This document shows, in pieces, positions 3,623 to 35,410 of a stretch of DNA of 64,000 nt. Under the pieces are notes generated by a model. That model did no database searches. It was given only the letters and a program-made list of their open reading frames with translations, and was not told where the DNA came from. Source of the stretch: a virus; the IMG/VR virus record IMGVR_UViG_3300030673_000004, positions 124,001-188,000 of that record. One strand, given 5' to 3'. How positions within the stretch are numbered: the first letter of the stretch is position 1; each line of letters begins with the position of its first letter. The translations under genes and the position numbers were made by a program.

Positions 3623-4226
3623 GCATCAAGTTGTTATTCATCATACTGCGGGTAACAGCGACCCTATTCAGGTTATTGACGGCTGGTCTGCCGATACAGC
3701 TCGCATAGCGACTCCTTACATAATTGGTGGTAAATCTTCAGCGGGTGACACTAAATATGAGGGTGCTATAGTAAAGGCATTTGATCCTGAGTGGGATGCC
3801 TATCATTTAGGTCAAGTTCCTGGTGATCCTAAGAATATCACGAGAACCTCCTTTGGCATTGAAATCTGTAACTGGGGGTATTTGACTGTAAAAAATGGCC
3901 AGTATTACAATTATGTAAATAAGGTTGTTCCTTTAGCTCAGGTTATTGATCTTGGGTTCAAGTTTCGTGGTTATCAGTTCTGGCATGCTTACACTGATGC
4001 TCAGGTTGCAGCTCTACATGATCTTCTAATTGCACTGATTAAGAATAGGTTTCATTGGACGTACCAAGCTAAGACATGGGATGCAAAATCGTTTGATTTT
4101 AATCCAGCAGCTTTTGCTGATGATAGCATTGGTACACATGCTAATTATAGGACAGACAAGTGGGACTGTAGTCCACAACCAAAATTGATAGAAATGCTTA
4201 ATGGGTTAAACTCGGAGTTAGTCTAA
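3564..4226 (+). CDS. Endolysin: N-acetylmuramoyl-L-alanine amidase, PGRP/Amidase_2 type
   Basis: This zinc amidase should cleave the bond between N-acetylmuramic acid and the L-Ala of the peptide stem at lysis. The family signature HHTAG is at residues 26-30, where a His is the first zinc ligand. The C-terminal zinc pair is visible as H192 (GTHANYR) and C202 (WDCSP), the arrangement of T7 lysozyme-like amidases. A Tyr/Trp-rich middle fits the substrate groove. At 220 residues it is a single-domain enzyme without signal peptide or wall-binding repeats. The ATG at 3564 has AAGGA 9 nt upstream; the upstream TTG is less likely. The stop overlaps the next ATG (TAATG), coupling the amidase to the first amidoligase-type gene. 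Confidence 0.85.
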   Translation: MNIIQHLLPDNQHLPTKTTKHQVVIHHTAGNSDPIQVIDGWSADTARIATPYIIGGKSSAGDTKYEGAIVKAFDPEWDAYHLGQVPGDPKNITRTSFGIEICNWGYLTVKNGQYYNYVNKVVPLAQVIDLGFKFRGYQFWHAYTDAQVAALHDLLIALIKNRFHWTYQAKTWDAKSFDFNPAAFADDSIGTHANYRTDKWDCSPQPKLIEMLNGLNSELV

Positions 4227-6946
4227 TGTCTAGTGAAGTTGTAGCTGCTACCCCAAAGTTAGATCGTTTCTCTTTGTGGAAGTCTGATTCTGACTTGGCT
4301 GGTATACCTTTTGGCTTTGAGTTTGAGTTTGCTTCACGTTTGGGCCGTGAAGATTTTGCGTCTGAGCTTAGTGACTCCTTAAATATATCTACTGATCATA
4401 TTGCTACATACGATGGGTACCACAGCAGTGATGAGGACGATAAGGACTATACTCTCTGGAATGTTGAAGGTGACTCTTCTATACATACTAGAGGAAACGA
4501 GACAGATATTGAGTTGGTGACACCTCCTCGTAACATTGCGTATTGGTCTTCACATTTGGAGACTGTCCTAGATTTGATTAAGGAACATGGGCGTACTGTA
4601 AAAGGTACAGGTGCTCATATTACTTTTTCTTATAGAGATTTGGATAATATTGACCCTATAAAGTTTGCTCTTCTTATTAATGACATTAGCATAGCAGATA
4701 CGTTTGGTAGGGCTCTGCATCATTATGCTGCTTTGTATCTAGCCAATGTGCGTAAGTATGTTTTTGACCACTATGAAATATCTGGTAAGAATATACCAGA
4801 CATACTTGAAGATATCTGCTCTGAAAAGCCTTCTGAGATATACGAGACAGAAAAATTTACATCTATTAACTTATCTAAGTTAGATAATGATCCACCCTTG
4901 ATTGAAGTTCGCAGTCCCGGTGGCTATGACTATGAGAATAAAGGATCTGATTTTTTACGTGTGTGTCGTATAATAGCTAGTGCTTTGATAGTAGCGTGTG
5001 ACAATGCTGCTTACCCTGACGTTTATGCTCACAAATTTGGTAAGTTGCTCGCTGTCGGTCAGTTTGATACGCCATTAGTTTCTAATGGTGTTCCAGATCA
5101 ATTAGGTTCCCGTTCACAGTTATGGCAGTATCAGTGGTCTGTGTCACTAGGTAATACTTCTTACACTATGCGCGCTCGGTTGGGTTTTTCTTCAGCTATT
5201 GACTATGTAATTAGTGCTGATATGGCTTTGTGTGTTTTATATGATCCGGATGAACCTACAATACGCTTAGATTGTGATCATGCTGATATAAATCAAGCAT
5301 CTCGTAACATGAAAACGCTGTTTCCTATTGCTAAATTAATTCAGTTGATCAGGCTAACACCTGTTGGTAGCTATCTCCCTGGTGTACCTGCGGATATAAT
5401 AGATAAGTGCAACCAAAGTGCTGCTACACTTGGTGATGAAAATACTAAGATATCTGATTATTTTGGTAAGAAGCCTTCTGCTAAGGTACATACATCTAAT
5501 AACATAAGTATGTTACTTAGTATTTTTGTTAAGCCAACAGCTACATCTATGATTAAAGCTGCTCGCTTGGCTGCTCTTCGGACTGCTGCTACATATCAAA
5601 TTGAGTACCTAAATAAGTTTGTTGGTGCTCTTGCTGATAATGCTTCATCCTATATTGAAAATCATTTCAAAGATGCTCAACAGTTGTATGAAGCATCTCC
5701 CGAGATACTAGGGAACTTAGCTAAGTACGCCGGTAAGCAGGATGACCCATCAGCGTTGCACAATATATTTCGTGCTGTTGGTTCAGATTTGATTAAACTA
5801 CCGTCTAGCATGTATACAGAACTTGCAAGGGATTTTGTTGCGTCTGTGCCCTTAGAGTCTGATAAAGTGTTAGATATTCTAAGTGGTGCTGTGTCCTCGA
5901 TAGGTTCGTCCAATTTACCTGCTCCTATTAAGTTATCCATGTCTGCTCAGTTGCAGACACGGGTAGACGAGTATATAGAACAAGCACCCGAGCCGGAGTT
6001 GCTTAGAGGTCTGTATTTAAGCATAGCAAATGCAAGCAAAGATAGGACAGAACTTCAGAAATTGTGCATCCTTTGTTGTCAAAAGCCGAAACTTAAAGCA
6101 CTCCTGCTTGGTCAAGTTTTAGGTAATTTTGATTATTTCATCCATGCTTTATCTTCTAAACCCGTAGATCTTTGTAACCTTATTTGGGTAGTTGATGACT
6201 TAGACATACCAGATACTGAAAAGTTGCTACTCTGGCGTTCTCAACATAATTCAACACCAAGGAATCAGTTACTAAAGCTTGCTGATTCTAGGGATACAGA
6301 ACCTTTAATAAAGTGGGATTTAGCTGCTGGTGTTGATGAGGAGTCTAGAACTCAGACACGTAAGGACCATGCTGTTATTTTGTTTGCTGCTATGCTCAAG
6401 AGTGGCTCTGTTGCTCTAAGTGCTTATGACGGCATTATGACTATGTATGCATCACTTCCCGAGAATTTACGTATGGGTTGTACTCGGTATGTATTCTCGC
6501 AGTTAACTGGCTTTTTATCTTCTCCCCGTACAAAGTTGTGGTTGGTTTTAAGTGGTTATTTGCTAAGTATGGTTGATGGTCTAGCCACCTGCACCGAATC
6601 AGACACAGCCTTAGTTCGTCGGGCACATACGTTGCCTAAGTTTACAGAAGATGTTGACTTATACCTCGGTGAGGGTTCGCAGTTCTGGCGGAAAGATCGC
6701 CCACAACACTGTGGTAAACTGCACTCTATTTTACAACAGTCCTTGTTTATTGATGATACTCCTGTGACACTACAGCAGTTAGCTACTAACAATTTTACTC
6801 TTGGTGCTGGTACTCCTGGTGTTGTGTCTTATATGTTTGGTGGAGAGAAGAAGCAGTTAGCTGAGTTTAACATCAGTCTTCTGCAGAACTACGCTCGTGC
6901 TCTGATACGGGTAGAGGCAACTATAAAAGACCGGCCCACTGCGTAG
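4226..6946 (+). CDS. Amidoligase-type protein, paralogue 1 (906 aa)
   Basis: The N-terminal ~260 residues match the predicted amidoligase family (Pfam Amidoligase_2, related to the glutamine synthetase/glutamate-cysteine ligase fold), which joins a carboxyl and an amine using ATP. Motifs in order: GFEFEF (30-35), EGDSSI (81-86), IELVTPP (95-101), TGAHITFS (128-135), TSINLSKL (212-219) and IEVRSPGG followed by DYENK (226-238). The acidic residues and H131 are the likely metal, ATP and substrate ligands by analogy. The remaining ~640 residues are mostly helical and Leu-rich, with no domain I recognise. The ATG overlaps the amidase stop (TAATG), so it is probably made late. Substrate unknown; the enzymatic role is predicted from motifs. 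Confidence 0.72.
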   Translation: MSSEVVAATPKLDRFSLWKSDSDLAGIPFGFEFEFASRLGREDFASELSDSLNISTDHIATYDGYHSSDEDDKDYTLWNVEGDSSIHTRGNETDIELVTPPRNIAYWSSHLETVLDLIKEHGRTVKGTGAHITFSYRDLDNIDPIKFALLINDISIADTFGRALHHYAALYLANVRKYVFDHYEISGKNIPDILEDICSEKPSEIYETEKFTSINLSKLDNDPPLIEVRSPGGYDYENKGSDFLRVCRIIASALIVACDNAAYPDVYAHKFGKLLAVGQFDTPLVSNGVPDQLGSRSQLWQYQWSVSLGNTSYTMRARLGFSSAIDYVISADMALCVLYDPDEPTIRLDCDHADINQASRNMKTLFPIAKLIQLIRLTPVGSYLPGVPADIIDKCNQSAATLGDENTKISDYFGKKPSAKVHTSNNISMLLSIFVKPTATSMIKAARLAALRTAATYQIEYLNKFVGALADNASSYIENHFKDAQQLYEASPEILGNLAKYAGKQDDPSALHNIFRAVGSDLIKLPSSMYTELARDFVASVPLESDKVLDILSGAVSSIGSSNLPAPIKLSMSAQLQTRVDEYIEQAPEPELLRGLYLSIANASKDRTELQKLCILCCQKPKLKALLLGQVLGNFDYFIHALSSKPVDLCNLIWVVDDLDIPDTEKLLLWRSQHNSTPRNQLLKLADSRDTEPLIKWDLAAGVDEESRTQTRKDHAVILFAAMLKSGSVALSAYDGIMTMYASLPENLRMGCTRYVFSQLTGFLSSPRTKLWLVLSGYLLSMVDGLATCTESDTALVRRAHTLPKFTEDVDLYLGEGSQFWRKDRPQHCGKLHSILQQSLFIDDTPVTLQQLATNNFTLGAGTPGVVSYMFGGEKKQLAEFNISLLQNYARALIRVEATIKDRPTA

Positions 6947-6953
6947 TTTGTAG

Positions 6954-6982
6954 TTGACAGATTTGACAGGCATACTTATATT
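6954..6982 (+). promoter_or_regulatory. Sigma70-type promoter giving a leaderless mRNA for amidoligase paralogue 2
   Basis: TTGACA (6954-6959), a 17-bp spacer and TATATT (6977-6982) match the consensus. The gene's ATG begins at 6989, 6 nt after the -10, where transcription should start. A second TTGACA overlaps the spacer at 6963. Unlike most promoters here, the spacer lacks the ATACA-N7-TGTAT dyad. Confidence 0.8.
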
Positions 6983-6988
6983 AAAGGT

Positions 6989-9739: not shown

Positions 9740-9823
9740 AGACTTCTTCCAGTTCTCTGCGGTAAATGGTAAGGATACTGCTGGTGACAGCAACTGCATT
9801 TACTACAGAGATCTTGTTAGGAG
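9738..9823 (+). promoter_or_regulatory. Structured RNA leader of the B12-dependent ribonucleotide reductase gene
   Basis: Three nested perfect stems can be drawn in the 93-nt gap before the reductase gene. P1 pairs TCTCTG (9754-9759) with CAGAGA (9806-9811). P2 pairs GTAAATG (9762-9768) with CATTTAC (9797-9803). P3 pairs TGCTG (9779-9783) with CAGCA (9788-9792) around a GTGA tetraloop. AGAGA at 9738-9742 could instead pair with TCTCT (9754-9758), which would compete with P1. The ribosome site AGGAG (9819-9823) follows P1. An nrdJ RNA motif has been described upstream of class II reductase genes; whether this matches its consensus needs a covariance search. No cobalamin-riboswitch core was seen. 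Confidence 0.5.
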
Positions 9824-9832
9824 TATCTAGAA

Positions 9833-12238
9833 ATGAGTTTTGCCCTTCCTTCTGCATATCAAGAGTTCATCGCTAAGTCCCGTTATTCTCGCTGGTTGGA
9901 GAATGAGAATCGTCGTGAGACTTGGGATGAGACAATTGATAGGTATCTTAATTTCTTCTTTGATCACCATAAGCCTACAGCATCTGCTTTTCTATCCCTA
10001 GATGATCAGGGTGCTGGTCTAAAGCAAGACTTACGCAATGCTATGCTTCATTTAGAGGCTCTACCAGCTATGCGTTGTTTGATGACAGCCGGACCTGCCT
10101 TAGATCGTGATAATGTTGCTGGTTACAACTGCTCGTATGTTGCCATTGATCACATCAAAGCCTTTTCTGAGGCGATGTACGTACTTATGTGCGGTGCAGG
10201 CGCAGGATTTTCTGTAGAGCGTCAGTTTGTATCTAAGTTACCTGAAATAGCCGAGTCATTTCATCCATCGGATACTGTTATTATTGTAGAGGATAGTCGG
10301 ATTGGGTGGGCAAAAGCCCTAGATGAGCTTCTTTACTTGCTTTATGGTGGCCAAATTCCTCGTTGGGATGTTTCTCGTGTGCGTCCTGCGGGATCCCGTC
10401 TTAAGATCTTTGGCGGTCGTGCTTCTGGTCCTGAACCCTTGGAGAAACTATTTAAGTTTGCTGTTGCTTTGTTCCAAAAAGCTGCTGGGCGTAAGCTGGA
10501 GTCAATTGAGTGCCATGATCTCATGTGCAAAATTGCAGATATTGTTGTCGTTGGTGGTGTTCGTAGAGCTGCACTTCTATCCCTATCGAACTTGTCTGAT
10601 TTAAGGATGCGTGATGCTAAGTCAGGATCCTGGTGGGATTACGCTCCTCATCGGAAGCTTGCTAATAATTCTGTTGCCTATACGGAGCGTCCTGATATTG
10701 GGCACTTTATGGAGGAGTGGGTATCTTTGTATAAATCCTACTCTGGTGAACGTGGCATCTTCAACAGAGAAGCTGCCCGAAAGCTCGCTGCTCGTTACGG
10801 TAAGAGAGACCCGAATCAGCAGTTTGGGTGTAATCCGTGCTGCTTTACTGGTGATACTTTGATTGCTGTTGCTGATGGTAGGAATGCTGTCAGCATTCAT
10901 GATTTAGCTGAACAGAGTGCTGGTTCAGTTCCTTTTCTTGTTTACAGTGCTCGGCTGAATCGTCGTGGTGACAAGGTTAATTCTTGGGTTACTGAGATAA
11001 AGTCGGCTGTAGCTAAGAAGACAGGCACAAAGCCTGTTGTTCTTGTAACATTATCTAATGGTTCTTCCTTCCGTTGTACTGATGACCATTTATTGGCTAC
11101 TCCTGCTGGAACTTATGTGATGGCTAAAGACGCCTTAGGTGCTGTACTCGTGTCTTATACGGATAATTCCTCTGATATTACTGTTGTATCTATTGAGGAT
11201 GCGGGTATCGAAGATATCTTTGATTTGACTGTTGAGGATAATCACAATTTTTATATTATTACATCTACAGAGGATGCTTCTTATAATAATTGTGAAGGTA
11301 TTCTGGTTCATAACTCAGAGATCATTCTTCGATCCATGCAGTTCTGCAATCTATCTACTATTGTTTTGCGTCCTGATGATACAAAAGATGACATTCGTAA
11401 GAAGATTCGCCTAGCTGCTATTTTTGGAACTATGCAGTCAACGTTGACTAATTTTCGGTATCTGCGGAAAAAGTGGCGGCAGAACACTGAGGAGGAAGCT
11501 CTTATCGGTGTATCCATGACAGGCATCTTTGATCATCCTCTCATGGGTGCCGTATCGTCAGAAGAGCGTGATACATTCCTGCAGGAGCTTCGTCTTATTG
11601 TGGAGAGTGTTAATAAGGAATTTGCTGAGATCTTTCATGTGAGTCCTGCGGCTGCTGGGACTTGCATTAAACCAGAAGGCACCGTTTCTGAGTTGGTTGG
11701 GTCGGCTTCAGGCATCCACCCGCGATTCTCTAAGTATTATATCCGGTCTGTTCGCGGTGACAACAAGGATCCTCTAACTAGTTTCTTGAAGACCACAGGT
11801 GTTAAGTGGGAACCCGAGATTGGTAAAGAAGATTCTACCACAGTGTTTTACTTCCCTGTTAAAGCTCCTGATGTTTGTGTAACCCGAGATGATCTTACGG
11901 CTATTGATCAGTTGAAGATCTGGAAGGCATATCAAGATCACTACTGTGAGCATAAGCCATCTATTACGGTATATGTTCGTGAGAATGAGTGGCTTGAAGT
12001 GGGTGCTTGGGTTTGGGATAACTTTGATATGATGTCTGGTGTTTCATTCTTGCCTTATGACAATGGTGTGTATCAGCAAGCACCCTATACCGTATGTACA
12101 GAGGAAGAGTACCTGGCTTTGAAGGAGAAGACCCCTGTAATTGATTGGGCCGCTCTTGAAGCTGTGGAGACCGATGACGCTGCTGTTGCCGGTATTCGTG
12201 AGTATGCTTGCACAGGTGGGGGTTGTGAGCTCCGTTAA
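9833..12238 (+). CDS. nrdJ: Adenosylcobalamin-dependent ribonucleotide reductase (class II) with intein
   Basis: Reduces ribonucleotides to deoxyribonucleotides for phage DNA synthesis using adenosylcobalamin as radical source. It resembles the monomeric ribonucleoside-triphosphate reductases. Visible features are AGYNCSYV near residue 100 (N-terminal redox Cys), VGGVRRAALLS, the thiyl-radical Cys in CNPC/SEIIL split by an intein at residues 337-494, CIKPEGTVSELVG, and the C-terminal Cys pair CTGGGCE that accepts reducing equivalents. The mature protein would be about 643 residues, shorter than the Lactobacillus enzyme. It depends on splicing and on B12 supplied by the host. AGGAG lies 9 nt before the ATG, and a structured leader precedes it. 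A terminator follows. Confidence 0.9.
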   Translation: MSFALPSAYQEFIAKSRYSRWLENENRRETWDETIDRYLNFFFDHHKPTASAFLSLDDQGAGLKQDLRNAMLHLEALPAMRCLMTAGPALDRDNVAGYNCSYVAIDHIKAFSEAMYVLMCGAGAGFSVERQFVSKLPEIAESFHPSDTVIIVEDSRIGWAKALDELLYLLYGGQIPRWDVSRVRPAGSRLKIFGGRASGPEPLEKLFKFAVALFQKAAGRKLESIECHDLMCKIADIVVVGGVRRAALLSLSNLSDLRMRDAKSGSWWDYAPHRKLANNSVAYTERPDIGHFMEEWVSLYKSYSGERGIFNREAARKLAARYGKRDPNQQFGCNPCCFTGDTLIAVADGRNAVSIHDLAEQSAGSVPFLVYSARLNRRGDKVNSWVTEIKSAVAKKTGTKPVVLVTLSNGSSFRCTDDHLLATPAGTYVMAKDALGAVLVSYTDNSSDITVVSIEDAGIEDIFDLTVEDNHNFYIITSTEDASYNNCEGILVHNSEIILRSMQFCNLSTIVLRPDDTKDDIRKKIRLAAIFGTMQSTLTNFRYLRKKWRQNTEEEALIGVSMTGIFDHPLMGAVSSEERDTFLQELRLIVESVNKEFAEIFHVSPAAAGTCIKPEGTVSELVGSASGIHPRFSKYYIRSVRGDNKDPLTSFLKTTGVKWEPEIGKEDSTTVFYFPVKAPDVCVTRDDLTAIDQLKIWKAYQDHYCEHKPSITVYVRENEWLEVGAWVWDNFDMMSGVSFLPYDNGVYQQAPYTVCTEEEYLALKEKTPVIDWAALEAVETDDAAVAGIREYACTGGGCELR
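10841..11314 (+). mobile_element. Mini-intein in the reductase active-site motif (158 aa)
   Basis: In-frame insertion between CNPC and SEI. It starts with Cys (CFTGDTLI, block A), contains the block B pattern RCTDDHLLATPAG with the conserved T-x-x-H, block F (DIFDLTVEDNHNFYI), and ends GILVHN followed by Ser+1. These are the residues needed for canonical protein splicing. At 158 residues there is no room for a LAGLIDADG or HNH homing endonuclease, so this is a splicing-only mini-intein. It interrupts the codons of the catalytic loop, where loss is only tolerated by exact deletion. Confidence 0.93.
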
Positions 12239-12260
12239 TCTTTGCTAGAAGATTGATAAG

Positions 12261-12290
12261 GCCCAGTCTTTATAGGCTGGGCTTTTTTAT
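12261..12290 (+). terminator. Intrinsic terminator after the reductase gene
   Basis: GCCCAGTCT (12261-12269) pairs with AGGCTGGGC (12274-12282), with one G-T pair, followed by TTTTTTATT. It separates the reductase from the tail genes. The next ATG is only 16 nt beyond the U-tract. Confidence 0.9.
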
Positions 12291-12305
12291 TACCCACTTC
12301 TTTGT

Positions 12306-13319: not shown

Positions 13320-13421
13320 TTACAAAACTAGTGCATTTTGTCACTTTTATCTGTTAATAACATTGAAATCTCTTCTTAGAAGATACACCGTAATTACCAA
13401 AAAAGAATAGAAGGAATATCC

Positions 13422-16400
13422 ATGGCAACATCACTGAATCCGGGTCGTTATGTACCAGTAGGTGCGTACACTTCGGAAATCGTTCAGGCTTCGGGTACAA
13501 ATCTGGATACGGCTACCCGTATTCCTACTTATATTGGTGTCGGTAGCCGACTGATCAATCAAGCGAATCTTCAGATCAGCCGCGCTTATATCAACGATGC
13601 ACCTCTGACTTTTACTGCTACTAGCCCACATACAGCAGCTCTTTCGCCTTTGGCCGTATGCAATAAGAGCATGACGACTATCGTTGATTCAAAGGCAGTA
13701 GCTGTTCGTAGTGACCTTTGGTACTTCAATAGCGACGGATCTACTGTTGTTATTGCTGATGCTGCCTACAGATCTGGTGAAGTTTATACGATTTCATATC
13801 AATCTGCCGATGCTTCTATTGGTGATGCCATGCCGTATGCAGGCATTCGTGAAATAACATCTGTTGGTACTTTTGCTAGTCAATCGCAGTTTGAGCGTAA
13901 CACAGATTTTTATCTGTCAACATCTGTTGGTTCTGTTGGTGCTAAGATCGACTCATCTACAGGTGAATATGTTCAGTATACTAATAGTGCTGCTACGTTT
14001 ACGGCTGTTACCCATACATCGGGTGCTGGATCGGCCAAAGTAGCTCTAGACGCATACACTGAATTCAATCATAACTACAGTCGTTCCTATACACTTCAGG
14101 TGACAGCAAGCTCAAGCACTGCTTATACGTTTGCTTGGACAGCAACACCTATTGCTTCTGGTAATGATGCGGCTCCTTCTGTGCCCTTAACATCTGCTGT
14201 AGCTGCACCGACATTTTTGGTGGATTCTACTTTAGTCCAGACTCAAACGGTCACTCTAGAATATGGTGTGAAGGTTGATTTTGACTTCTCCGGTAGTACT
14301 TCATTTGTTGTTGGTGACACTTACACATTCAGTGCTTATGCTCCGGCTCTTATTGAGCCCCATTCTGCATTTGCCAATAAAAATCAGTATGCTGTTGCAA
14401 CTGATGTGATTGCTGCTGATGATAATACAGGTGTTGGTTCCCTTGTAGCTGACGTAGATGGTTACACAGGAACTACAAATCTAAATGTTCAGTTGAACGT
14501 TGTTTCTGTAGATCCCGCTATCAGTGCAGCCTCTGTTCCGACGGGTACTGTTACATTGACAGGTACTCCTGTAGATGGGCAGGCTTTTGTTATCAGCAAT
14601 GGACTTGCTGGTACCAAGAAGGTAACACGTACTTTTGAGTTTGATACCGATGGTGTTCGCTCTGTTGCGGATTCTACTTTGGTACCCGTGTCTACCGTTG
14701 CTGCTACCTATTCTGTAGGTGGTATTGCTTTTGGAACTGCTAGCGCTCCTGTTATCCCGGCAGACGGCGATGTCTTAGTGCTGAATGATGGTTCTAGCAC
14801 TTATACATTTGAGTTTGATTCCGACAATAACTTGACAAACCGTAGTGCTATTCGTGTTGTAATTGATACAACATCTCTGCTAACGGCTGCTAATTTAGCA
14901 TCTGCTATCAATAGCTCGGCTGTGCGCCTAACGGCTGCTAATGATGTGTCCTCTACTTATGGTAAGATCACACTTACTAATAAAGTTGCTGGAACAATTG
15001 GTAACGCTGCTAATTCCTATACAGGATCGGCTGCTGTTATTCTTACGCAGCCCACAAACGGAACAGATGCCTCGGTTAATCTTAGTGCAACTACCACAGC
15101 GTTGATCTCTGCGCTTAATAGTGCAAGCACCGCTTTGGGCATGGTCGCTACTTCAGATGATTCTACTGTAGGTTTAGTGCATCTTACCTATGGTGCTCAG
15201 TTTACGTTGACCGCTCTTCCAACGGCTGCTGACACGGTAACTGTTGCTTTGGGATCCACAACCAACGTGTTTACCTTCCGTGCTCTTGCGGATGCTACAG
15301 GAGCTACAGATGTAGCTATCGGTACTACCGTAGCAGCTACTGTTGCTAATTTGGCAGCAAAGCTAAGTGCTGAGGTGTCTTACTTAGTGGCCCATACAGA
15401 TGTAACCGTAACTGTTGCTCATGCTTATGGTAGATCTCTTACTCTGAGTAAGACTTCTTCTGTTGTAACAATTCTTTCTAGCGTTGTTGATAATGCTTCG
15501 GCTAGTTCTGTCGGGAATGTGGCAATCACAGCAGTCAGCACTCTTTCTAATGTTACTTTGGCTGGAATGTCTGGCGGTGTTGTTGCTGCTGATGCACCCG
15601 ATCACCTGACATTTGCTTGGGGTGTTGGTGGTGATATCTTTGCAGGTGGTACATTCACGGTTGCTGAAACAGATAAAGCAACTAAGGAGTTTACTCTTGT
15701 TCGTGGTATCAAGGTGAAGCTGAGTCAGGCCATTGCTTCTCATGCTGCCGGATCTGTCGTTTTTCATTCCCAACCTGCTGTTGCAGATCTTCTGACTGTT
15801 ACCGATGGCTTGGGTGAGTCAGCTCATGTTTTTGAGTTCAGCACGACAGGAACAGTTACTTCTGGTCATACGGCTGTTCTGATTGGTAGTTCTATTGCAA
15901 CAACCGCTGCTAATCTAGTAGCTACTGTGAATGCTGCTACTACAGCTCTAGCAATAACTGCTTCGCTGTCCGGAAGTACCGTTACATTGGTAAACGATAA
16001 GACAGGCACAGGCTCGTCTAATGCTTACAATACAGCGATCACTACAACAAGTACACATCTAGCCACAACAGGATTTGCTGGTGGTAAGGAGAACTACGCT
16101 GTTGGTGATGTATACACATTCACGGTTAAGGCTCCTCGTAAGTTTCCTACTGCTTATGATAGCCGAACTGTAGAATTTACTGTGTCTCAGGTTGGACTTA
16201 CTGGTAGTGGTGTTACAACGGATAACGGTTATGTAGCGTTTACCTATTCGTCGTCTACTCCCGAGGGTGGCTTTGGGAGTGTTACTGCGGCTACATCCAG
16301 CTACGGTTACTTCTCTCTACCTGGCCAGCTTACCTATGCTGCACGTAATACAATCCCGACGGTGTCTGGTGCTAACCGATTCGCAGTAGGTGATAAGTTC

Positions 16401-17849
16401 ACAACTAAGTTTGTGAACAATGAGGTCATCTATTGGGATTTGGATACTAAAGTATCTGAGTCTTTTACTGCTGATGACATTTTAGTTGATCGTAGTGGTG
16501 CCGTGACAGGATCTATTGGTGCTCTATATATTGCTTTGGAGTCCACACCAGTAACAAAGTATGGTGTCAAAGCTACTATGAGTGGAGTAACTTTTGCCGA
16601 TTATACATTGTCTGGAAATCAGATTCTGTTGACAGCAACGTCTACTGCGTCAATCAGTGGTACCCTAGTTTTCAATTATGTATCTGTCGGTTCAGAGCCT
16701 TCTCTAGGATCAACTTACTACATCTCTGGCAACTACAAGAGACCTGCTAGTAAGTATAATACGCTTCTTACGTATTCTACTTATGAAGATGCTCGTGATG
16801 CTCTGGCCCCCATGACTGCCAGTAATAACTTGGCAATCATGAATGAGCTGGCTTGGTCTCAGTCCTATACGCCGGTTAAGGTAGGCTTCATTCAGATTCA
16901 AGATTCGGATGATGATGGTGTGATCAGTACAGATGACGTGACCAACGCTTTGGAAGCAGCCGCATCTGTATCAGGCATTACTGAGGTTACCCCTATCGGT
17001 TTGTCATCCTTCTTAAGTAAGATTATGGCTTTTGATGAGAAGGGTCAGGATCCATTTGAGAAGCGTGAGCATATCACCTGGTACGGATTCCCTATTGGAA
17101 CTGCTGTTGGAGATTCCAATACAGTAGGTACCCTTGTGTATTATGCCCAGAACACGTTGAAGAGCTACGGGTCCGCGCTAACACACGGTCGTCGTGTAAT
17201 GATAGGTCACACTAAGGCTACCATGACGATAACTCTGTACGATGGAACAGATACTTCGGTAACGTTGGATGGTTCATTCATCAATGGTGCTGCTTGTGCT
17301 CTTTGGGCTGCTCGTCCGAATAACTCTACAACGCTATTGAAGAAAAATCTTCTTGGCTTTGATACCATTGATACCTATTCGGATACCGATAACAACACTC
17401 TTGGTGCCGCAAGCATCATCTGGTTGAAGCCTAATGGGGCGGGTGTTTATCAGTTCATGGAAGATATCACTATTGATAATTCCGATGCTACTTTCCAGAG
17501 CTTGCTTGCTACTGGTACTAAGTTGGATGCTGAGCGTGTTGTTCGTAGAGAGATGGATGCTGGTCTTGTTGGTGTTGTTGCCGATACACCGGAATCTGGT
17601 GTAGCTCTGGTTCGGACTAAGTTGGTAACTATCCTTTCCGGTTTAGTGTCCCAGGGACTCATTGCTCCCTACCAGACATCGGATGGATCACCTCGTGCTA
17701 TCTCGTCTGCTGATATTTTAGTCTATGTGGATTCGTCGGATCCAACTCTTTACAATTTCTTCTACGTCATCTACTCGCGCACTGTGATCAAGAGACTGTA
17801 CGGTATGTATTCCGTAAACAAAAATCTCTTTACCTCCTCTGCGTCGTAA
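13422..17849 (+). CDS. Giant contractile tail sheath protein (1475 aa)
   Basis: The C-terminal ~330 residues look like the conserved sheath core: WYGFPIG, then LTHGRRVMIGH, INGAACALWAARPNNSTT, NGAGVYQFMEDITIDN, and a final strand region VIYSRTVIKRLYGMYSVNKN that links neighbouring subunits. The N-terminus (NPGRYVPVGAYTSEIVQASG) is the usual sheath arm. Between them lie about 900 residues of beta-rich Thr/Ala/Gly-rich modules; related phage sheaths are usually 450-700 residues in total. One module type (YTFAW ... VGDTYTFSAYAP, ~225-310) recurs at ~725-905 with another module (TVTDG ... TAANL ... VTLVNDKTG) inserted inside it. An EF-hand-like loop, D-S-D-D-D-G-V-I-S-T-D-D, is at 1161-1172. Ribosome site GAAGGA. 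Confidence 0.87.
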   Translation: MATSLNPGRYVPVGAYTSEIVQASGTNLDTATRIPTYIGVGSRLINQANLQISRAYINDAPLTFTATSPHTAALSPLAVCNKSMTTIVDSKAVAVRSDLWYFNSDGSTVVIADAAYRSGEVYTISYQSADASIGDAMPYAGIREITSVGTFASQSQFERNTDFYLSTSVGSVGAKIDSSTGEYVQYTNSAATFTAVTHTSGAGSAKVALDAYTEFNHNYSRSYTLQVTASSSTAYTFAWTATPIASGNDAAPSVPLTSAVAAPTFLVDSTLVQTQTVTLEYGVKVDFDFSGSTSFVVGDTYTFSAYAPALIEPHSAFANKNQYAVATDVIAADDNTGVGSLVADVDGYTGTTNLNVQLNVVSVDPAISAASVPTGTVTLTGTPVDGQAFVISNGLAGTKKVTRTFEFDTDGVRSVADSTLVPVSTVAATYSVGGIAFGTASAPVIPADGDVLVLNDGSSTYTFEFDSDNNLTNRSAIRVVIDTTSLLTAANLASAINSSAVRLTAANDVSSTYGKITLTNKVAGTIGNAANSYTGSAAVILTQPTNGTDASVNLSATTTALISALNSASTALGMVATSDDSTVGLVHLTYGAQFTLTALPTAADTVTVALGSTTNVFTFRALADATGATDVAIGTTVAATVANLAAKLSAEVSYLVAHTDVTVTVAHAYGRSLTLSKTSSVVTILSSVVDNASASSVGNVAITAVSTLSNVTLAGMSGGVVAADAPDHLTFAWGVGGDIFAGGTFTVAETDKATKEFTLVRGIKVKLSQAIASHAAGSVVFHSQPAVADLLTVTDGLGESAHVFEFSTTGTVTSGHTAVLIGSSIATTAANLVATVNAATTALAITASLSGSTVTLVNDKTGTGSSNAYNTAITTTSTHLATTGFAGGKENYAVGDVYTFTVKAPRKFPTAYDSRTVEFTVSQVGLTGSGVTTDNGYVAFTYSSSTPEGGFGSVTAATSSYGYFSLPGQLTYAARNTIPTVSGANRFAVGDKFTTKFVNNEVIYWDLDTKVSESFTADDILVDRSGAVTGSIGALYIALESTPVTKYGVKATMSGVTFADYTLSGNQILLTATSTASISGTLVFNYVSVGSEPSLGSTYYISGNYKRPASKYNTLLTYSTYEDARDALAPMTASNNLAIMNELAWSQSYTPVKVGFIQIQDSDDDGVISTDDVTNALEAAASVSGITEVTPIGLSSFLSKIMAFDEKGQDPFEKREHITWYGFPIGTAVGDSNTVGTLVYYAQNTLKSYGSALTHGRRVMIGHTKATMTITLYDGTDTSVTLDGSFINGAACALWAARPNNSTTLLKKNLLGFDTIDTYSDTDNNTLGAASIIWLKPNGAGVYQFMEDITIDNSDATFQSLLATGTKLDAERVVRREMDAGLVGVVADTPESGVALVRTKLVTILSGLVSQGLIAPYQTSDGSPRAISSADILVYVDSSDPTLYNFFYVIYSRTVIKRLYGMYSVNKNLFTSSAS

Positions 17850-21753: not shown

Positions 21754-21776
21754 ACAAAGTATCAATAGGAGTTTCT

Positions 21777-21977: not shown

Positions 21978-21982
21978 TTGCT

Positions 21983-22207: not shown

Positions 22208-22233
22208 ACTGCATAAAAGTATGTATGCGAATT

Positions 22234-22266: not shown

Positions 22267-22267
22267 T

Positions 22268-26214: not shown

Positions 26215-26227
26215 ACCACTTCTTGAT

Positions 26228-29200: not shown

Positions 29201-30076
29201 GCATCTACTAAAATAACAACTCAAAAAGATTTAATTGTTACATATCCTAAAATGCACATTGAGTTGCAGGATGCGCCTGTGGTACCGTATCCTGCTGATT
29301 TCTCTGCTCAGTATAGATTGACACCTAAGCAATTAGCTTCTTTCTTTGGCTCTCCTAGTGGTGAAGAGGTGGATCGTGCTTCTCTGGCACCCCTGCCGTT
29401 CAAAGCATCACATCTACTGATTACTAATCTGAATGCTTACACAGTTAAGCAGCTTGATGAGCTGTACTCTTGCCCGGCACCTAGTGCGGAGGCACAATCA
29501 TTCGGTGATTCTTTGGCAAGGACTATATTTGCTGCTACTAAGTCTGGACCTTGTCCTGCTTCCTTGCTGACATCAAACATAGCACGTGCTTATATGACAT
29601 CTACATCACCGGGTATGGGAACATTCTTGTTTCAGTATATAGAATCTATTTTAATACCTGACGATGATTTTCGTAGATTTAATATGTTTACTGGTGGTAC
29701 GAGTAATCCTGAATTGGGGTCTGTTCTGTTCTCCTCGTTGCTACCTTTCTATTCTATTTATGCTTCTATTACCCATGTGGGTAGGCAACATGTTTCATTT
29801 GTTGATTTATTGGACGCCTTTATAGGTGATCATGCAGTATCTCCAGAAGCTTTCTGCTCTAAGGAATTTGTTGCTCTGTATAAATTCTGTGTTCATGTTG
29901 GTATTGTTAATAAGATTAGCTCTGATTCTTTACCTGATGCATTATTTGAGGTATATACGGGCCTTAAATTGCATACGCATGTTGCTTTGATTGATGCTTT
30001 GATACATGAGCATAAGAAATCCCATAAAGTAACATCACTATTTCCTATGTATGGGTACCCTTATTATGGCGACTGA
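26228..30076 (+). CDS. Amidoligase-type protein, paralogue 4 (1282 aa)
   Basis: Largest of the six. Motifs: AQFDRDL (7-13), RCGFEAEF (23-30), SYGASH, WSVETDSTI, RIELVSPIL, ETGCHLTFS, YRSINMSKT and LEFRLPGG with DYQYK. The linker between the third and fourth motifs is longer than in paralogues 3 and 5. The ~950-residue C-terminal region is helical and unassigned. The ATG is 13 nt after the upstream stop with no clear ribosome site, so it probably relies on coupling. The next gene begins inside its last codons. Conservation of the whole motif set argues that the catalytic-type domain is under selection. Confidence 0.72.
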   Translation: MDIVTAAQFDRDLSKNLSSLPVRCGFEAEFASALPHDRIPTILEAFLQNPGKTDIEGIPERLGPRPGIEVNNSYGASHGGSYKSWSVETDSTIHVDNHHSYRIELVSPILTLPDMIHGLKAVMAMLRSNVELPSEYVDQDVVSLGETDKETGCHLTFSIKDIDLSKVDVLKLAVLLGEDHWGDVFGRHNNGWAEEALDHFKNWVTTKEIKDPRDLAAAVSDLCNRSALDVQDSELFKWLDNRMEKYRSINMSKTRQGVLEFRLPGGKDYQYKDDKLAIVAERFAYAFYASADPTAYADYYKQKLVRIALKFMATPEAQQRSATQIYDESKVFMRVRSTGGSSYLCLMPDDKPLSAPAMAFALKSLGEGAYSIEQDVPEQQSFRSITGTINLVKTNSILGYVSYALINTKFKLSDTVVSSLLRSFLLPRSVPDTRSVQHYIYLPHTSVDELSVSKFATTTIDVNWPESIKEAVQKEKDASSEWLAPGGSLYLSRIVAAIRNSKASDIIKLHAQYNDQLNTLIYGDFRGVHLDQLAGDPLAKNKFDLMHTVEAPAADIANYLNSSDYQREVQTAWGERFNGNRPIPFIILSSLSQLDESFVARLKTHYWLFAECFPGTVKSYADAIDPDEVSFYLDVLRLLPEEKKESLIVPVSAYIGRQLAGTLNADALSDDIFVKELNVLLEHVSDIADTGAKDTTEVELPTVLSTVSTRIILNMQGMAAQAISPVLGIIFPKLPNFVKYMETMHAHALVDSLTDDMLLNYDGTDFSNKLPPLTIKIFLSNTAKQLESAGAYTGTDVSEIATAFVLAYAKGIIDTIPKQLDSTVVSQAAVHCVLNMKNAAMEGNDELYVKLNVFVDQGTRILDIAPKLKSELYRAYLHDMSKEKETEDSLKEKGALTLAALIAIGYGTYGAQALGAGSATCFNAAVKHYRGAWTSSVTDDFLHHMNALCNLSRPLPACSLFDAISKLISTYPTTGDPAADSLRGIFSDYQVASTKITTQKDLIVTYPKMHIELQDAPVVPYPADFSAQYRLTPKQLASFFGSPSGEEVDRASLAPLPFKASHLLITNLNAYTVKQLDELYSCPAPSAEAQSFGDSLARTIFAATKSGPCPASLLTSNIARAYMTSTSPGMGTFLFQYIESILIPDDDFRRFNMFTGGTSNPELGSVLFSSLLPFYSIYASITHVGRQHVSFVDLLDAFIGDHAVSPEAFCSKEFVALYKFCVHVGIVNKISSDSLPDALFEVYTGLKLHTHVALIDALIHEHKKSHKVTSLFPMYGYPYYGD

Positions 30077-33000
30077 TTATACTGTTGTAACGGCATCTCA
30101 GTTCGATAGAGATCTTCATAGTATTAGTTCTGACTGGTCTAAGTATAAGGGTCCTGCTGTTCGCTGCGGCTTTGAAGCTGAAATGGCTTCTGCTTTATGG
30201 TGGTCTGATTTTGCAGATAAGTTACAATTGGCTCTAGGCATCAATAGGAGTAGCATAGTTGTAAGTGAGCGTTACGGCGCATCTCATGATGGGGATTACC
30301 GCTATTGGTCGGTAGAGTCAGACACATCAATTCAGGTTGATCCGGAGCACCAGTGTCAGATTGAAGTAGTCTCCCCGATACTTGGAATAGATGCTATGCT
30401 GGGGTCTTTGGAGAAGGTCTGCTCGTTGATGGCAACTAAGCAGAGTGGTAAGGCTCTAGCTATTTCAAATAACTCTACTGGATTGCATATAACATTCAGT
30501 CTAGAGGATACTAACCTAACTAAGGTCAATGTTGCTAAGCTGTACCTGTTGCTGGGTGAGGATTACTGGAGATTGGTTTTTGGGCGTAATGATACAAGCT
30601 ATGCAAAATCTGTAAAGCCTGCTTTGCTCGCTATGGTAGCTGAATTGTCTCGTTCTTCTGGCATGAAGAGCATGCAACAGTTTGATCTTGATAAGTTCTA
30701 TCAAGAGATGCGCAGTGATGACATTGGTCGCTATGGTACTATTAATATTTCCAATATAGTTAGCCAGAAAGACTTCCCCGATAAGCAGCGTATCGAGTTT
30801 AGGTTGCCTGGTGGTGCTGGTTATGAGCACAAGTTTTCATTATTAGCACGTGTAGCTCGTAGGTTTGCTTATGCTTTGTACGCATCAACCTGTGATGCTT
30901 ATGATGATGTTTTTGCACTTAAATTGTACAAGTTCCTAGATAAGTATAAAGAAGCTACTCATGAGGATGACCATCGTGTTAAAGCTATAGCAAATACCCA
31001 TGGATTCTCTTTAGTAGATTTTCCTGCAAATATGGATCAGAGTCGTGTTCGGTTATTTAGTTTCATTTATACTGGAAGTAGCCTTACGCACATAGAGGCG
31101 GATAATCCTGCTGCTGGATTCTCATCTGAGATAGAGAGTCAGATAGAGGCGTTGGCTGAGAAGTATGGTGGTCGAAGCATTTCTCTCGGGAGTCACGAGT
31201 TCAGCTTAAAGCCGGAAGTCTTGCTAACGCTGGACCATGGATCTTCGCAGAGATTGGCTTACGGTAAGTATACTGAAACATTGTTACATCTATTTGGGTT
31301 AACTACGAGCGTGCAGCTTTCTCAGTTTACTATGCAGGCTCTTGCAGAAAATTCAAATTGTACAGATATACTGTTTTCCATTATTTCTACTATGGCTGTA
31401 GGACCTCGGGGTGCTGCTGGTTGTTCATATGCTAACTTAGGTTTCTTCTTATCTCAACATGGTGGTGATTCAGATCCTTATGTAATCTATAATAAAGATT
31501 ACTTTCTTGATCATCCTGTTTATTTAGATTACTTCCTTGCTGGTTTTGGTGTAGAACCTAAAGACGGTATCTCTGATTCTTATTTGAGTGCTCTTCGTGG
31601 TATCTTGCAGTATGGTATGATACCGTCTGGTATTACCTCTAGTTTTGTTGGTAAGATAGCTGAAGCCGCTTTTGTGGCGAGTGACTCAGTAGATGCTAAG
31701 ATGCTGCTAAGTTCTTTAGCTACGAAGGGTTATTTAGTAAATGCGTCACAGGCTAGCCATGCTTTTGTACAAGAAGTACTGTCTGATACAGCTAAAGTTG
31801 ATGCATTATTCATGAGAAGAGATGTGGCAGAAATGAACCTTGGTTTTATTTATGGTGTAATAAATAAACTGGGTTTTGCTTCTGAGGTGCGTCCTGCTTT
31901 AATTCAGATAATCAAAGATCACGGCGGTTGGCGTGCATCCGAGACGTTTCCTCGTAATGCCTTAACGTTAGATTTATCTAACGCAGAACTGAACGAGATA
32001 GGTATAACAAATATACCTGGTATTAATCTGCATCCTGATATGCACACGATAAATGAGATACTCGTTGGACTTAAGAATCAGAACTATCCTAGAGACAGCA
32101 TTTCTGCTTTTTTTAATGGTCCCGACGTATTGAGTTATATTAAAACAGAAGATTTTATTGATGATGATGATTTCTGCATAAAATTAGTATCTGGTTGGCT
32201 TGCTAATTATGAAAACGTTCACGGTTCCCTTGTTGAGAATGAGATACTGCATAATGCGGGTATCGCATTTTGGTTTACATCCGCGCTGCATGAATTTGAC
32301 AAACACTTGTTATCTGTTCTTAGCTGGGGTGACGTAGATACTATTTATACCACAGTATTACATAGTAGTTATGCTAACGAGTTATTCCATAAGATTTTAT
32401 CTAGTAGTGCTGCGTCTAAAGAGTTGCCAGCATTTATGCGTGCCTACTTAACTTATGTGAGTTCTGCCAGTAGTGGTGGTATCACTAATGGTGCAATGGA
32501 TGCTCCTCCAAGTATCTATGTACCTTTGTTGAATGAGGCAGGTGTTAAAATACTAACTGCGTTTTTTGAGAAAGGCTTTATTTTTGAGCCTACGTTTAAG
32601 GCGTTGGCAATGACAGTAGACGCCTTTGTAGCATCTTCCTACATAACCGAGATAGCGCCACACTGTTTATTGCTGGATAAAGTGTTCTCAACCTATAAGA
32701 GTAAGTCTGTTGACCCTACTAATGAGAATGGCTTTTTGACTAATCGCATTGAGTCTCTTAGACGTGCGGGTTTTGATGTGCGTGATGTGGCACCAATAGC
32801 TACTAAAGAGTTACAGCATGAGACAGCACCCTATGTTCATGAGTTCTCTGCACCCTTTCAACCATCTCGTGGTGAGCGTAGATCTGTAGAAGATACAATT
32901 TCTTATATTGCAAACCCTCCGTTTCATAAATCTGACTTCTTTGGTGCTGTTGAAGCTATGCCTGCTGAAGATATGCCTGATCTTTTTGTGAAGATACAGT

Positions 33001-33593
33001 CGGGAGCACCCGTTGTTAAAGCTATGGGTTTTGGTCTGTTGACATCTGCGTCTATATACCCGATGGATGATCAGGGGAATCGCTTGATTAAACCTGAGGT
33101 ACTATTAGAGGGTCTTAAATACCCAGATTTTACTACCAACTTAGTGCTTGCTCTGGTGTCAGACGCTAAAGCAGAGACACACAGTTCTAGTACGACACAT
33201 AGAGTGTACGGTTATACTTGGAGTGATTTTTTCTATTTGCTGTTATCTCCTGATACTAAGCTAGGTCCTGTGACCTTTGATACTAAAGATTACTTAGTGA
33301 TGCTTGGTTATTTTGCAGCTTTTGTTAATCCATCTATCCTGTTATCTGAGAGATCTTTGGGATTTTATAAAACATTAGTAAATGAGATACCAGGAAGGTA
33401 TGCTGATCCTAGGACAGAGTCTTCTATTAAGCTTCTGTTGCATAAATTTGCCCGAGGTCTTGTTGAGTTTGATCCTGTTAATCACGTGCGTGTTTTAGAT
33501 CCCAATATGCCTTATCCGTTGCTTCGCTATGTGGCTAAGAATCTGTCAACAACCGCATACCTGCATAATTTCTTTGAAAACTTTTGTAAGTAG
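30066..33593 (+). CDS. Amidoligase-type protein, paralogue 5 (1175 aa)
   Basis: The ATG at 30066 (MATDYTVVTASQFDRDL) is preferred over the in-frame ATG at 30051 because it aligns with paralogue 4's start; both overlap the upstream stop. Motifs: RCGFEAEM (33-40), RYGASH, WSVESDTSI, IEVVSPI, STGLHITFS, YGTINISNI and RIEFRLPGG with GYEHK. The nearest relative by motif wording is paralogue 3 or 4. The ~880-residue C-terminal part is helical with occasional Gly/Pro breaks. Whether the C-terminal regions of paralogues 3-5 align with each other needs a pairwise profile comparison. Same predicted activity, unknown substrate. Confidence 0.72.
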   Translation: MATDYTVVTASQFDRDLHSISSDWSKYKGPAVRCGFEAEMASALWWSDFADKLQLALGINRSSIVVSERYGASHDGDYRYWSVESDTSIQVDPEHQCQIEVVSPILGIDAMLGSLEKVCSLMATKQSGKALAISNNSTGLHITFSLEDTNLTKVNVAKLYLLLGEDYWRLVFGRNDTSYAKSVKPALLAMVAELSRSSGMKSMQQFDLDKFYQEMRSDDIGRYGTINISNIVSQKDFPDKQRIEFRLPGGAGYEHKFSLLARVARRFAYALYASTCDAYDDVFALKLYKFLDKYKEATHEDDHRVKAIANTHGFSLVDFPANMDQSRVRLFSFIYTGSSLTHIEADNPAAGFSSEIESQIEALAEKYGGRSISLGSHEFSLKPEVLLTLDHGSSQRLAYGKYTETLLHLFGLTTSVQLSQFTMQALAENSNCTDILFSIISTMAVGPRGAAGCSYANLGFFLSQHGGDSDPYVIYNKDYFLDHPVYLDYFLAGFGVEPKDGISDSYLSALRGILQYGMIPSGITSSFVGKIAEAAFVASDSVDAKMLLSSLATKGYLVNASQASHAFVQEVLSDTAKVDALFMRRDVAEMNLGFIYGVINKLGFASEVRPALIQIIKDHGGWRASETFPRNALTLDLSNAELNEIGITNIPGINLHPDMHTINEILVGLKNQNYPRDSISAFFNGPDVLSYIKTEDFIDDDDFCIKLVSGWLANYENVHGSLVENEILHNAGIAFWFTSALHEFDKHLLSVLSWGDVDTIYTTVLHSSYANELFHKILSSSAASKELPAFMRAYLTYVSSASSGGITNGAMDAPPSIYVPLLNEAGVKILTAFFEKGFIFEPTFKALAMTVDAFVASSYITEIAPHCLLLDKVFSTYKSKSVDPTNENGFLTNRIESLRRAGFDVRDVAPIATKELQHETAPYVHEFSAPFQPSRGERRSVEDTISYIANPPFHKSDFFGAVEAMPAEDMPDLFVKIQSGAPVVKAMGFGLLTSASIYPMDDQGNRLIKPEVLLEGLKYPDFTTNLVLALVSDAKAETHSSSTTHRVYGYTWSDFFYLLLSPDTKLGPVTFDTKDYLVMLGYFAAFVNPSILLSERSLGFYKTLVNEIPGRYADPRTESSIKLLLHKFARGLVEFDPVNHVRVLDPNMPYPLLRYVAKNLSTTAYLHNFFENFCK

Positions 33594-33610
33594 CTAGGAA
33601 TAATTATCCT

Positions 33611-35410
33611 ATGAATACAAAGCCTGTTAAACTAGGTCATACACGTATGGGGTTTGAAGCTGAGTGTTTCTTAGATACGCGCAAATTGCAGTCTGTTCAT
33701 TTGGATGTAGGTACAGCCTTATCTAAATTCGTAGGACATCATAGTCGTATCAATGATCAGCTCGGTGAGGGTAAACTTCAACATCCTAATTACTCTTACT
33801 GGAATTTAACAGATGACAGTACCATACAAATACCCAATACGTCTGCCCAGGGCGTTGAGGTTGTATCTCCTATATTATCGTACCCGCAGTTCAGTTCTTC
33901 TGTTGAACATGTTTTTGATTTTATAGATGCCTTTGGTGGAACTAATGAAAGCTGCGGTTTTCATATTGGTGTTAGCTTGGATGGTGTAGATCTGTCTGAG
34001 ACTCTTGATGTCTTAAAACTGGTTGTGTTTATTGGCGAAGCTCATATAGCTCAGATGTTTGCTCGCTTTGACAATGACTATGCTCAGCGTCTAGAGCCTT
34101 TTGTATCTGATTATTTGAGTTCTTTTCATGACGTTACAGATCAGATAAAAGAGCTAGTAAAAAGACCTTTGTATCCTGTATCTAGCAGTACGGAGCATGT
34201 TATTCCGTGGGATAAGTATTTTAGCTTTAATTTTACAAAGATAAAATCTAAAAACTATATTGAATTTAGATTAATTGGTGGTGCTGACTACCATAAAAAA
34301 GCTAAGGATGTTTTGGTAGTTGCTCGGAGACTGGCTTGGGCGGTATCTGTTGCATGCGATCCAGAAGCCCTGAAAAGTGACTATGTGAATAAGCTACTGA
34401 GGATAGCTAGTTTGAGTCCTATTAGCTCTGTGTCTACCCATGTTCGTTTGAAGTTGGATGGAAATCAATGCCATATTGACGTTCCTCCCCCTTCCGATGC
34501 TTATGCAAGAACAGCGCTGCGTGATCATTTAACGCTCTCAGCCACTAAGTCTAATGCCGGCAGCTATGCGATCACGGCATGCTCTACAGATGATTTATCC
34601 GGTATTTACCGCGACTCTTTGTATGCGTTGCTAACGACAGGTGTGGGTGGTAACTTTAAGTTTACTATCTCGCCTAAAGCTGATCGTAATGTCTTTTGGA
34701 TAGTATTCTCGCTGTTGGATTTAGTTTCTTCTAATAAGGCTTTGTTGTATCTGCTTACAGCATGTCCCTCTGTATTTTATGTACTGGCTTCCGATGTTAC
34801 ATCTAAGGCTGTGGGTCGTGTTTTAGCATTATCGCATGATGCTTCAACTGCAATAGCTCTGCGCAGAGCGTTAGCGAAATGTAATCTAGCTGATGTAATA
34901 TCTGTGTATACTGCCCTGCATATGGTACCAACGCATATGGATCCTTCTGAGTTCTTAGGTGCCCTAGTAGACACTGGTGTTGATATTTTAGATTTGCCCG
35001 ACTACGCTAAGTATGTTCCTACTGTTTTTGACTCTGCACTAGAGTCGTTCTCTTATTTGGATCTTGTTGCACATAAATATCGTGATCTTGGTGTTATTCT
35101 GCAGATTCTAACATCACTGAATCCTGTGTTGCTTATGAACTCAGATCTGTTTCCTGTGGATAGCTCAAGTTCTTTAGCTCGTATGCTTTTAGAGCAGTGC
35201 CCCTCTGACTTTGACCCGTCCTATGCTGTTTCGTATCTACCTACTCTAGTCAGTATTCTCCAGCAGTATACAACAGAAGATCTTCCTATCTTCTTTCATT
35301 TGTTCGATATAGGCGTTGCTTTTGAGCGTCCTTATATTTTTGGATTGATCACAGCGCTAAAAAGCTACAATGTGGATAAGTCGTGGACAAAATGTTTACA
35401 GTTGCCTTGA
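33611..35410 (+). CDS. Amidoligase-type protein, paralogue 6, short form (599 aa)
   Basis: The shortest copy starts almost directly with the domain: RMGFEAEC (12-19), then W-N-L-T-D-D-S-T-I, VEVVSPIL, ESCGFHIGVS, FSFNFTKI and YIEFRLIGG with DYHKK. It keeps the E-x-R-x-x-GG-x-x-Y-x-x-K ending that all six share. Its C-terminal helical region is ~330 residues, a third to half of the others. CTAGGA precedes the ATG by about 9 nt. It may be the minimal functional unit or a truncated duplicate. The 20-nt gap after it leads to a helical protein of unknown function, not to more of the same frame. Confidence 0.7.
   Translation: MNTKPVKLGHTRMGFEAECFLDTRKLQSVHLDVGTALSKFVGHHSRINDQLGEGKLQHPNYSYWNLTDDSTIQIPNTSAQGVEVVSPILSYPQFSSSVEHVFDFIDAFGGTNESCGFHIGVSLDGVDLSETLDVLKLVVFIGEAHIAQMFARFDNDYAQRLEPFVSDYLSSFHDVTDQIKELVKRPLYPVSSSTEHVIPWDKYFSFNFTKIKSKNYIEFRLIGGADYHKKAKDVLVVARRLAWAVSVACDPEALKSDYVNKLLRIASLSPISSVSTHVRLKLDGNQCHIDVPPPSDAYARTALRDHLTLSATKSNAGSYAITACSTDDLSGIYRDSLYALLTTGVGGNFKFTISPKADRNVFWIVFSLLDLVSSNKALLYLLTACPSVFYVLASDVTSKAVGRVLALSHDASTAIALRRALAKCNLADVISVYTALHMVPTHMDPSEFLGALVDTGVDILDLPDYAKYVPTVFDSALESFSYLDLVAHKYRDLGVILQILTSLNPVLLMNSDLFPVDSSSSLARMLLEQCPSDFDPSYAVSYLPTLVSILQQYTTEDLPIFFHLFDIGVAFERPYIFGLITALKSYNVDKSWTKCLQLP

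Follow-up and report, generated by a model that had tools for sequence, protein, structure and literature searches.

An expanded family of sixteen diverged amidoligase-type genes in the genome of a large tailed phage

Introduction

Why should one virus carry gene after gene for the same type of predicted ligase? The question is raised by a DNA stretch of 64,000 bases (hereafter the window), which corresponds to bases 124,001–188,000 of a 375,537-base virus record (375.5 kb). An original prediction, made from the letters alone, had noticed there six giant paralogous genes with an N-terminal domain of amidoligase type and assumed that they encode several ligases directed to different targets by diverged C-terminal regions. 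The virus, which is uncultured, is a tailed phage, since the window encodes a major head protein and a terminase large subunit (Table 1), and the record also codes for a portal protein (~190.7 kb, here and below in record coordinates) and a head maturation protease (~120.7 kb). The head protein is about 28–32% identical to those of jumbo phages (Phage NCTB, Motura, Dickeya and Erwinia phages), and the terminase is ~30% identical to its counterparts in PaBG and Erwinia jumbo phages. A chimeric origin of the window was dismissed, as its GC content is even (0.40–0.44).

Results

The six genes of the window were found at the predicted places. All their frames are open and their sum, 18,474 bases or 28.9% of the window, agrees with the 18.5 kb and 29% given before. 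Only the start of the fifth gene needs correction: the gene is present, but the proposed position 30066 is an internal ATG of the frame 30051–33593, so that translation starts at 30051 or 30066. Assignment of the first ~300 residues to the amidoligase family was borne out by hmmscan, where PF12224 (Amidoligase_2) exceeded its curated cut-off of 22 bits in five of the six proteins, while the sixth, paralogue 2, which is the most diverged in the window, fell just below it with 18.3 bits. A profile built from the phage's own copies gave E-values of 1e-71 to 1e-97 for all six (3.5e-71 for paralogue 2), each of them being itself included in this profile. According to the aligned motif table, every motif listed in the original prediction is present in all six proteins: G-[FY]-E-x-E, W-x3-D-x-[ST]-[IV], E-x-x-[ST]-P and [TC]-G-x-H, as well as the N segment, E-x-R-x-x-G-G and Y-x-x-K. 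In paralogue 1 they read GFEFE, WNVEGDSSI, IELVTP, GTGAH and EVRSPGG, and in paralogue 2 GYEFE, WIFEHDGSV, IELITP, SCGLH and ELRAMGG. Chance motif matches as a source of this family were ruled out by the profile scores and by the pairwise identity of about 22–38%.

Table 1. Amidoligase-type genes and head and packaging genes of the phage (window coordinates unless record starts are indicated)
Feature	Position	Strand	Evidence and remarks
Major head protein	381..1496	+	phrog_2522 E=1e-48; head module
Amidoligase paralogue 1, 906 aa	4226..6946	+	PF12224 E=5.6e-9; N-domain ~aa 20-310, C-terminal region ~590 aa
Amidoligase paralogue 2, 916 aa	6989..9739	+	PF12224 E=2.2e-3; N-domain ~aa 60-340
Amidoligase paralogue 3, 1269 aa	22405..26214	+	PF12224 E=2e-12, motifs; N-domain ~aa 15-330, C-terminal region ~940 aa
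Amidoligase paralogue 4, 1282 aa	26228..30076	+	PF12224 E=2.1e-7, motifs; N-domain ~aa 10-320, C-terminal region ~960 aa
Amidoligase paralogue 5, 1180 aa	30051..33593	+	PF12224 E=3.9e-11; N-domain ~aa 30-320, C-terminal region ~860 aa
Amidoligase paralogue 6, 599 aa	33611..35410	+	PF12224 E=1.2e-7; N-domain ~aa 5-275, C-terminal region ~320 aa
Terminase large subunit	54963..57107	+	phrog_17415 E=4e-116
Amidoligase copies outside the window	record starts about 76,661, 78,970, 80,253	-	own-copy profile
Amidoligase copies outside the window	record starts about 213,939, 216,882, 218,373, 221,417, 224,228, 225,241		own-copy profile
Amidoligase copy outside the window	record start about 313,963		own-copy profile

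The number six, correct for the window, turned out to be only a part of the family, as the whole record carries 16 amidoligase genes in four clusters (Table 1). They encode proteins of 338 to 1282 aa, all 16 frames are open, and together they take up 35,928 coding bases (35.9 kb), which is 9.6% of the record's length. With PF12224, 14 matches above the cut-off were obtained over the whole record, lying within at most 14 of the 16 genes, and with the own-copy profile there were exactly 16. Since this profile was built from 15 of the 16 copies, their E-values are partly circular; the copy at 80,253, which was left out, scored E=2.2e-38 (18 bits with PF12224). In an all-versus-all comparison of 421 open reading frames (roughly 158 kb of the record) the amidoligases formed the only paralogue family with more than two members, the rest being two pairs, and no further members were found in the stretches of the record inspected. 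Assembly duplication or recent tandem copying was dismissed, because the closest pair is 48% identical and most are at 21–30%.

At this level of divergence G-x-E-x-E, W-x3-D, E-x-x-[ST]-P, H and E-x-R-x-x-G are nevertheless present in all 16 copies. A first alignment of 15 paralogues showed no substitution in G-x-E-x-E, W, D, E..P, H and E-x-R..G, and D, E, P, H, E-x-R and G remain invariant across 58 phage domains; of the ten copies located elsewhere in the record, most lack the Y-x-x-K tail. The E-x-E, G-x-H strand and E-x-R motifs resemble, by motif likeness, the metal, nucleotide and substrate ligands of glutamine synthetase. Thus, as far as predicted sites can tell, the suggestion that no copy looks dead holds for the entire set.

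Structural models point in the same direction. For the N-domain of paralogue 5 (frame 30051) AlphaFold2 gave a model with pLDDT 85.7 and pTM 0.83, whose first 36 PDB matches were all glutamine synthetases or YbdK, and gamma-glutamylcysteine synthetase was also among its structural neighbours. The full-length model of paralogue 6 (33611), with pLDDT mostly 80–97 in the N-domain and mostly below 50 in the C-terminus, independently had glutamine synthetase and YbdK as best PDB matches of its N-domain, and gamma-glutamyl-methylamide synthetase as one of the neighbours. The best PDB matches of the two models had E-values of 2e-4 and 7e-4. Full-length TM-scores to glutamine synthetase were low (0.26–0.37) and the rmsd high, so the two models support a fold of the glutamine synthetase superfamily rather than close relationship. 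Among viral models the best named matches were phage amidoligases, including that of Atu_ph07. The predicted GS/GCL-like fold was therefore recovered in both models, and the alternative under which the prediction would fail, i.e. absence of this fold or a broken ATP site in most copies, is opposed both by the fold match and by the retained site motifs. Neither PafA nor Dop appeared when PDB sequences were searched up to E=1, and weak clathrin matches in the sequence search of solved structures were judged to be due to chance. Altogether, identity of the proteins as amidoligase-type enzymes (PF12224, predicted glutamine synthetase fold) can be considered well supported.

Only the first ~300 residues are common to the copies, with the exception of 216,882, where the domain is C-terminal and preceded by ~180 other residues. 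The C-terminal regions (about 125–960 aa) were predicted to be diverged, and they proved to be so past detection: between copies there was no BLASTP match at E 0.1 and no hhalign probability above 6%, and Pfam gave no match. The sole model covering such a region, that of 33611, is helix-rich there and of low confidence. Close relatives of the whole giants were not found in IMG/VR, and hence the C-termini could not be aligned with orthologues. Their dissimilarity agrees with the view that each variable part has a partner of its own; it may also reflect fast evolution only.

A tree of the domains, which the original prediction had asked for, was informative in one part. Nine copies of the 76–82 kb and 214–227 kb clusters form one well-supported group, and the copies of the window together with 313,963 fall among the remaining rows. 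Placing all 16 in a single clade, from which the free tree departs by three label changes, was not rejected (AU p = 0.38), so that by the tree data a single origin is neither shown nor rejected. The end branches of the tree are long. Judging by their sequences, the copies are therefore old and diverged, though motif-intact.

Genes located near the amidoligases were also considered. At 33 bp upstream of copy 313,963 there is a gene for a 1014-aa protein with a C-terminal gamma-glutamyl cyclotransferase (GGCT) domain (PHROG E = 6e-22, Pfam E = 7e-12), which has YGSN and the catalytic Glu (DRYEGH) and is fused to a ~780-aa N-terminal region. It is one of three GGCT (PF06094) domains in the genome, two of which have the catalytic Glu, and its gene alone adjoins an amidoligase. 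The second domain lies at 119.5 kb near the head protease gene; the third, GGCT-like one (261.1 kb), forms the C-terminus of a 424-aa protein (L118:8223-9497, record ~260.2–261.5 kb), has Leu in place of the catalytic Glu and is probably inactive or repurposed. By our estimate, one of three GGCT genes would fall beside an amidoligase with a chance of roughly 8% (about 14 slots, some 480 genes), and the argument for a functional link therefore rests on pairs in other phages. When phage regions were chosen by similarity to the fused GGCT alone, in seven of eight an amidoligase frame was found directly upstream of GGCT by the own-copy profile, although several of these regions belong to one related gut-phage group and do not make seven independent cases. 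In two gut phages a second frame weakly related to amidoligases was observed just upstream of the amidoligase–GGCT pair (L128:2143-2907, L133:1606-2421). Marine contigs show no tight linkage, since in the three amidoligase-bearing records with a nearby GGCT the distance is about 27 kb. Because GGCT pairs with amidoligase, gamma-glutamyl-amide chemistry is indicated, and gamma-glutamyl amides appear to be the likeliest product. The sole papain-like (C1) protease of the genome, with its Cys, His and Asn motifs, is encoded at 223.0 kb between two ligase genes inside the 214–227 kb cluster. One amidoligase cluster adjoins genes for a DNA exonuclease and a DNA ligase.

The window has other contents as well. 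A class II (B12-dependent type) ribonucleotide reductase gene (9833–12238) lies between two amidoligase groups and probably contains an intein, with an Intein_splicing match at aa 448–474 flanked on both sides by reductase matches. An ADP-ribosylglycohydrolase gene (58333–59229, Pfam E=1e-35) codes for another potential eraser of protein modification, and a radical SAM domain protein is encoded at 63080–63916. Three more giant frames (13422–17849, 38304–41708 and 42358–45279; 1475, 1134 and 973 aa) could not be assigned convincingly to any family and do not resemble the C-termini of the amidoligases.

Copy numbers in other phages were compared using Salicola phage SCTP-2, Atu_ph07, 24 IMG/VR and 105 GenBank records, and within this set the present family is the largest known. 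There are two tandem copies in SCTP-2 (440 kb) and a single one in Atu_ph07 (490 kb), found with the own-copy profile at E=8e-29 and E=2e-51, respectively. The tandem SCTP-2 genes (L014:14035-17795), annotated as hypothetical, are near a ClpP-like protease gene. Matches were found in 19 of the 24 IMG/VR records searched whole, 18 of which have one copy and one (L104) two tandem genes. A gut-phage amidoligase was matched at 130 places of 105 GenBank phage records, with at most two per record among the records listed. The claim of an unusual scale thus stands: 16 copies, compared with the one or two that were seen per record elsewhere in this set. Most single-copy IMG/VR amidoligases sit in very large proteins; contigs L022–L101, mostly marine as far as judged, have one domain in proteins of up to ~2,400 aa (e.g. 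L025:6741-13322), with a ~200-aa insertion after the first motif, and in a 2073-aa protein (L102:3462-9683) a cytidyltransferase-type match is combined with a C-terminal amidoligase domain. One scan of sequenced bacterial genomes gave no confirmed relatives, and none were found in plasmids. In the literature searched, no PF12224 enzyme was found to be characterised experimentally, and the papers found there call the function a predicted one.

Discussion

According to these data, the phage probably encodes an expanded set of active ligases with different targets. The reading that we prefer, with a probability of about 0.45, is that 16 full-length, probably active carboxylate-amine ligases of glutamine synthetase fold arose by old duplications and act on different targets through their C-termini, their products being trimmed by GGCT and perhaps cleaved by a protease. 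Starting from the observed family, motifs, fold match, copy number, divergence pattern and neighbourhoods, we infer that the enzymes are active, what they join and what their C-termini do, as follows. Mg-ATP would be bound by the N-terminal domain together with a carboxylate donor, for which the gamma-carboxyl group of glutamate or a glutamyl peptide is the likeliest candidate; the acyl-phosphate formed would then be joined to an acceptor amine. Each enzyme would be brought to an acceptor of its own by its long C-terminal region, which is unrelated to those of the other copies, and these acceptors are most likely various proteins of the host or the phage during infection. The gamma-glutamyl amides would be removed or trimmed by GGCT proteins, and the products may be cleaved by the lone protease of papain type.

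The main rival, which we consider unlikely, is that the enzymes introduce unusual amide linkages into peptidoglycan stem peptides or surface polymers, blocking superinfection or lysis. A cell-wall role was proposed for phiEco32, LUZ24-type and PSA-HP1 phages, whose cassettes combine amidoligases with an ATP-grasp enzyme, GGCT and a glutamine amidotransferase (PMC5498523, PMC10580990), and a GGCT is encoded in the phage studied too. However, the class II glutamine amidotransferase GATase_6 had no match in the record, with positive controls recovered in 14 of 14 cases, and in the absence of this partner the cell-wall model fits less well. The ATP-grasp family R2K_3, the only one of its kind searched for, was not found either, the copies are spread over four clusters, and 16 copies with giant unrelated C-termini are hard to square with a single repeating substrate. 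Given the high copy number and the unrelated C-termini, different targets seem likelier than one polymer.

Still less probable is that the family is carried in the particle or acts on it, with head and tail proteins being modified or crosslinked, or serves as a non-catalytic structural scaffold. The six copies of the window stand on the same strand between the head protein and terminase genes, the Atu_ph07 relative adjoins portal and prohead core genes, amidoligases of gut phages adjoin terminase and portal genes, and those of L104 are near a tail sheath gene; since this placement near head and packaging genes recurs, it suggests a virion-linked role. On the other hand, three copies lie on the opposite strand among DNA-repair-type genes, single-copy marine relatives adjoin DnaB helicase (as seen in one annotated marine-type neighbourhood), and the active-site motifs conserved in all 16 copies speak against a role that is structural only. 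The least probable option assumes gamma-glutamyl metabolites (glutathione-like, polyamine or amino-acid conjugates) or decorated modified DNA bases, with recycling by GGCT. It is built on the general preference of GGCTs for small gamma-glutamyl compounds, on the structural neighbours YbdK, gamma-glutamylcysteine synthetase and gamma-glutamyl-methylamide synthetase and on the cluster next to exonuclease and ligase genes, but for a metabolite pathway 16 diverged copies, enlarged by up to 960 residues, would not be needed.

Returning to ligases with different targets, the gene set suggests that the phage has a whole toolkit by which targets in the infected cell would be tagged chemically through the predicted reaction. 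A bolder and quite tentative version is combinatorial protein tagging, where ligases sharing a catalytic domain but each having its own docking region would put gamma-glutamyl or peptide tags on many proteins of host or virus, and cyclotransferases would act as erasers, together with a protease. If true, this would be a viral counterpart of the E3-ligase repertoire on the glutamine synthetase fold. Expenditure of about a tenth of the genome on 16 diverged, motif-intact copies would mean that the predicted activity is under strong selection and has been diversified. Amidoligases are common in phages. The 16 natural paralogues provide material for locating the part that sets substrate choice, and the role of the recurrent amidoligase–GGCT pair becomes directly testable.

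In domain profile and motifs the family is similar to the amidoligases of Atu_ph07 (AUZ94978, TM 0.67 to the model of the phage studied) and SCTP-2 (genes 124 and 125) and to BFVD phage amidoligases. In contrast to the 16 copies found here, the other phages examined have one or two per genome, of about 300–650 aa or inside proteins of ~1,500–2,400 aa (mainly marine contigs). In Heliusvirales gut phages (e.g. Blautia phage NatCom_24097) an amidoligase (own-copy profile E=1e-15 to 1e-20) directly adjoins GGCT, as at 313,963; their ligase is compact (~300 aa) and the pair stands beside terminase and portal genes, whereas here one of 16 ligases is paired and its GGCT is of the fused type. The phiEco32/LUZ24-like/PSA-HP1 peptidoglycan modification cassette (PMC5498523, PMC10580990, PMC3890496) also unites amidoligase and GGCT in one genome, but the phage studied differs from it in all the respects listed above, from the two partner families to the scattered giant ligases. 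Large expansions as such are already known, since Bacillus phage G has ~35 zinc-ribbon copies (PMC7824862, a survey of 224 jumbo phages, where amidoligases appear in the reference list only). Both are large lineage-specific gene families of jumbo phages, yet the zinc ribbons of phage G are small, proposed transcription factors or structural DNA-binding proteins, while the family described here consists of large enzymes resembling ATP-dependent ligases.
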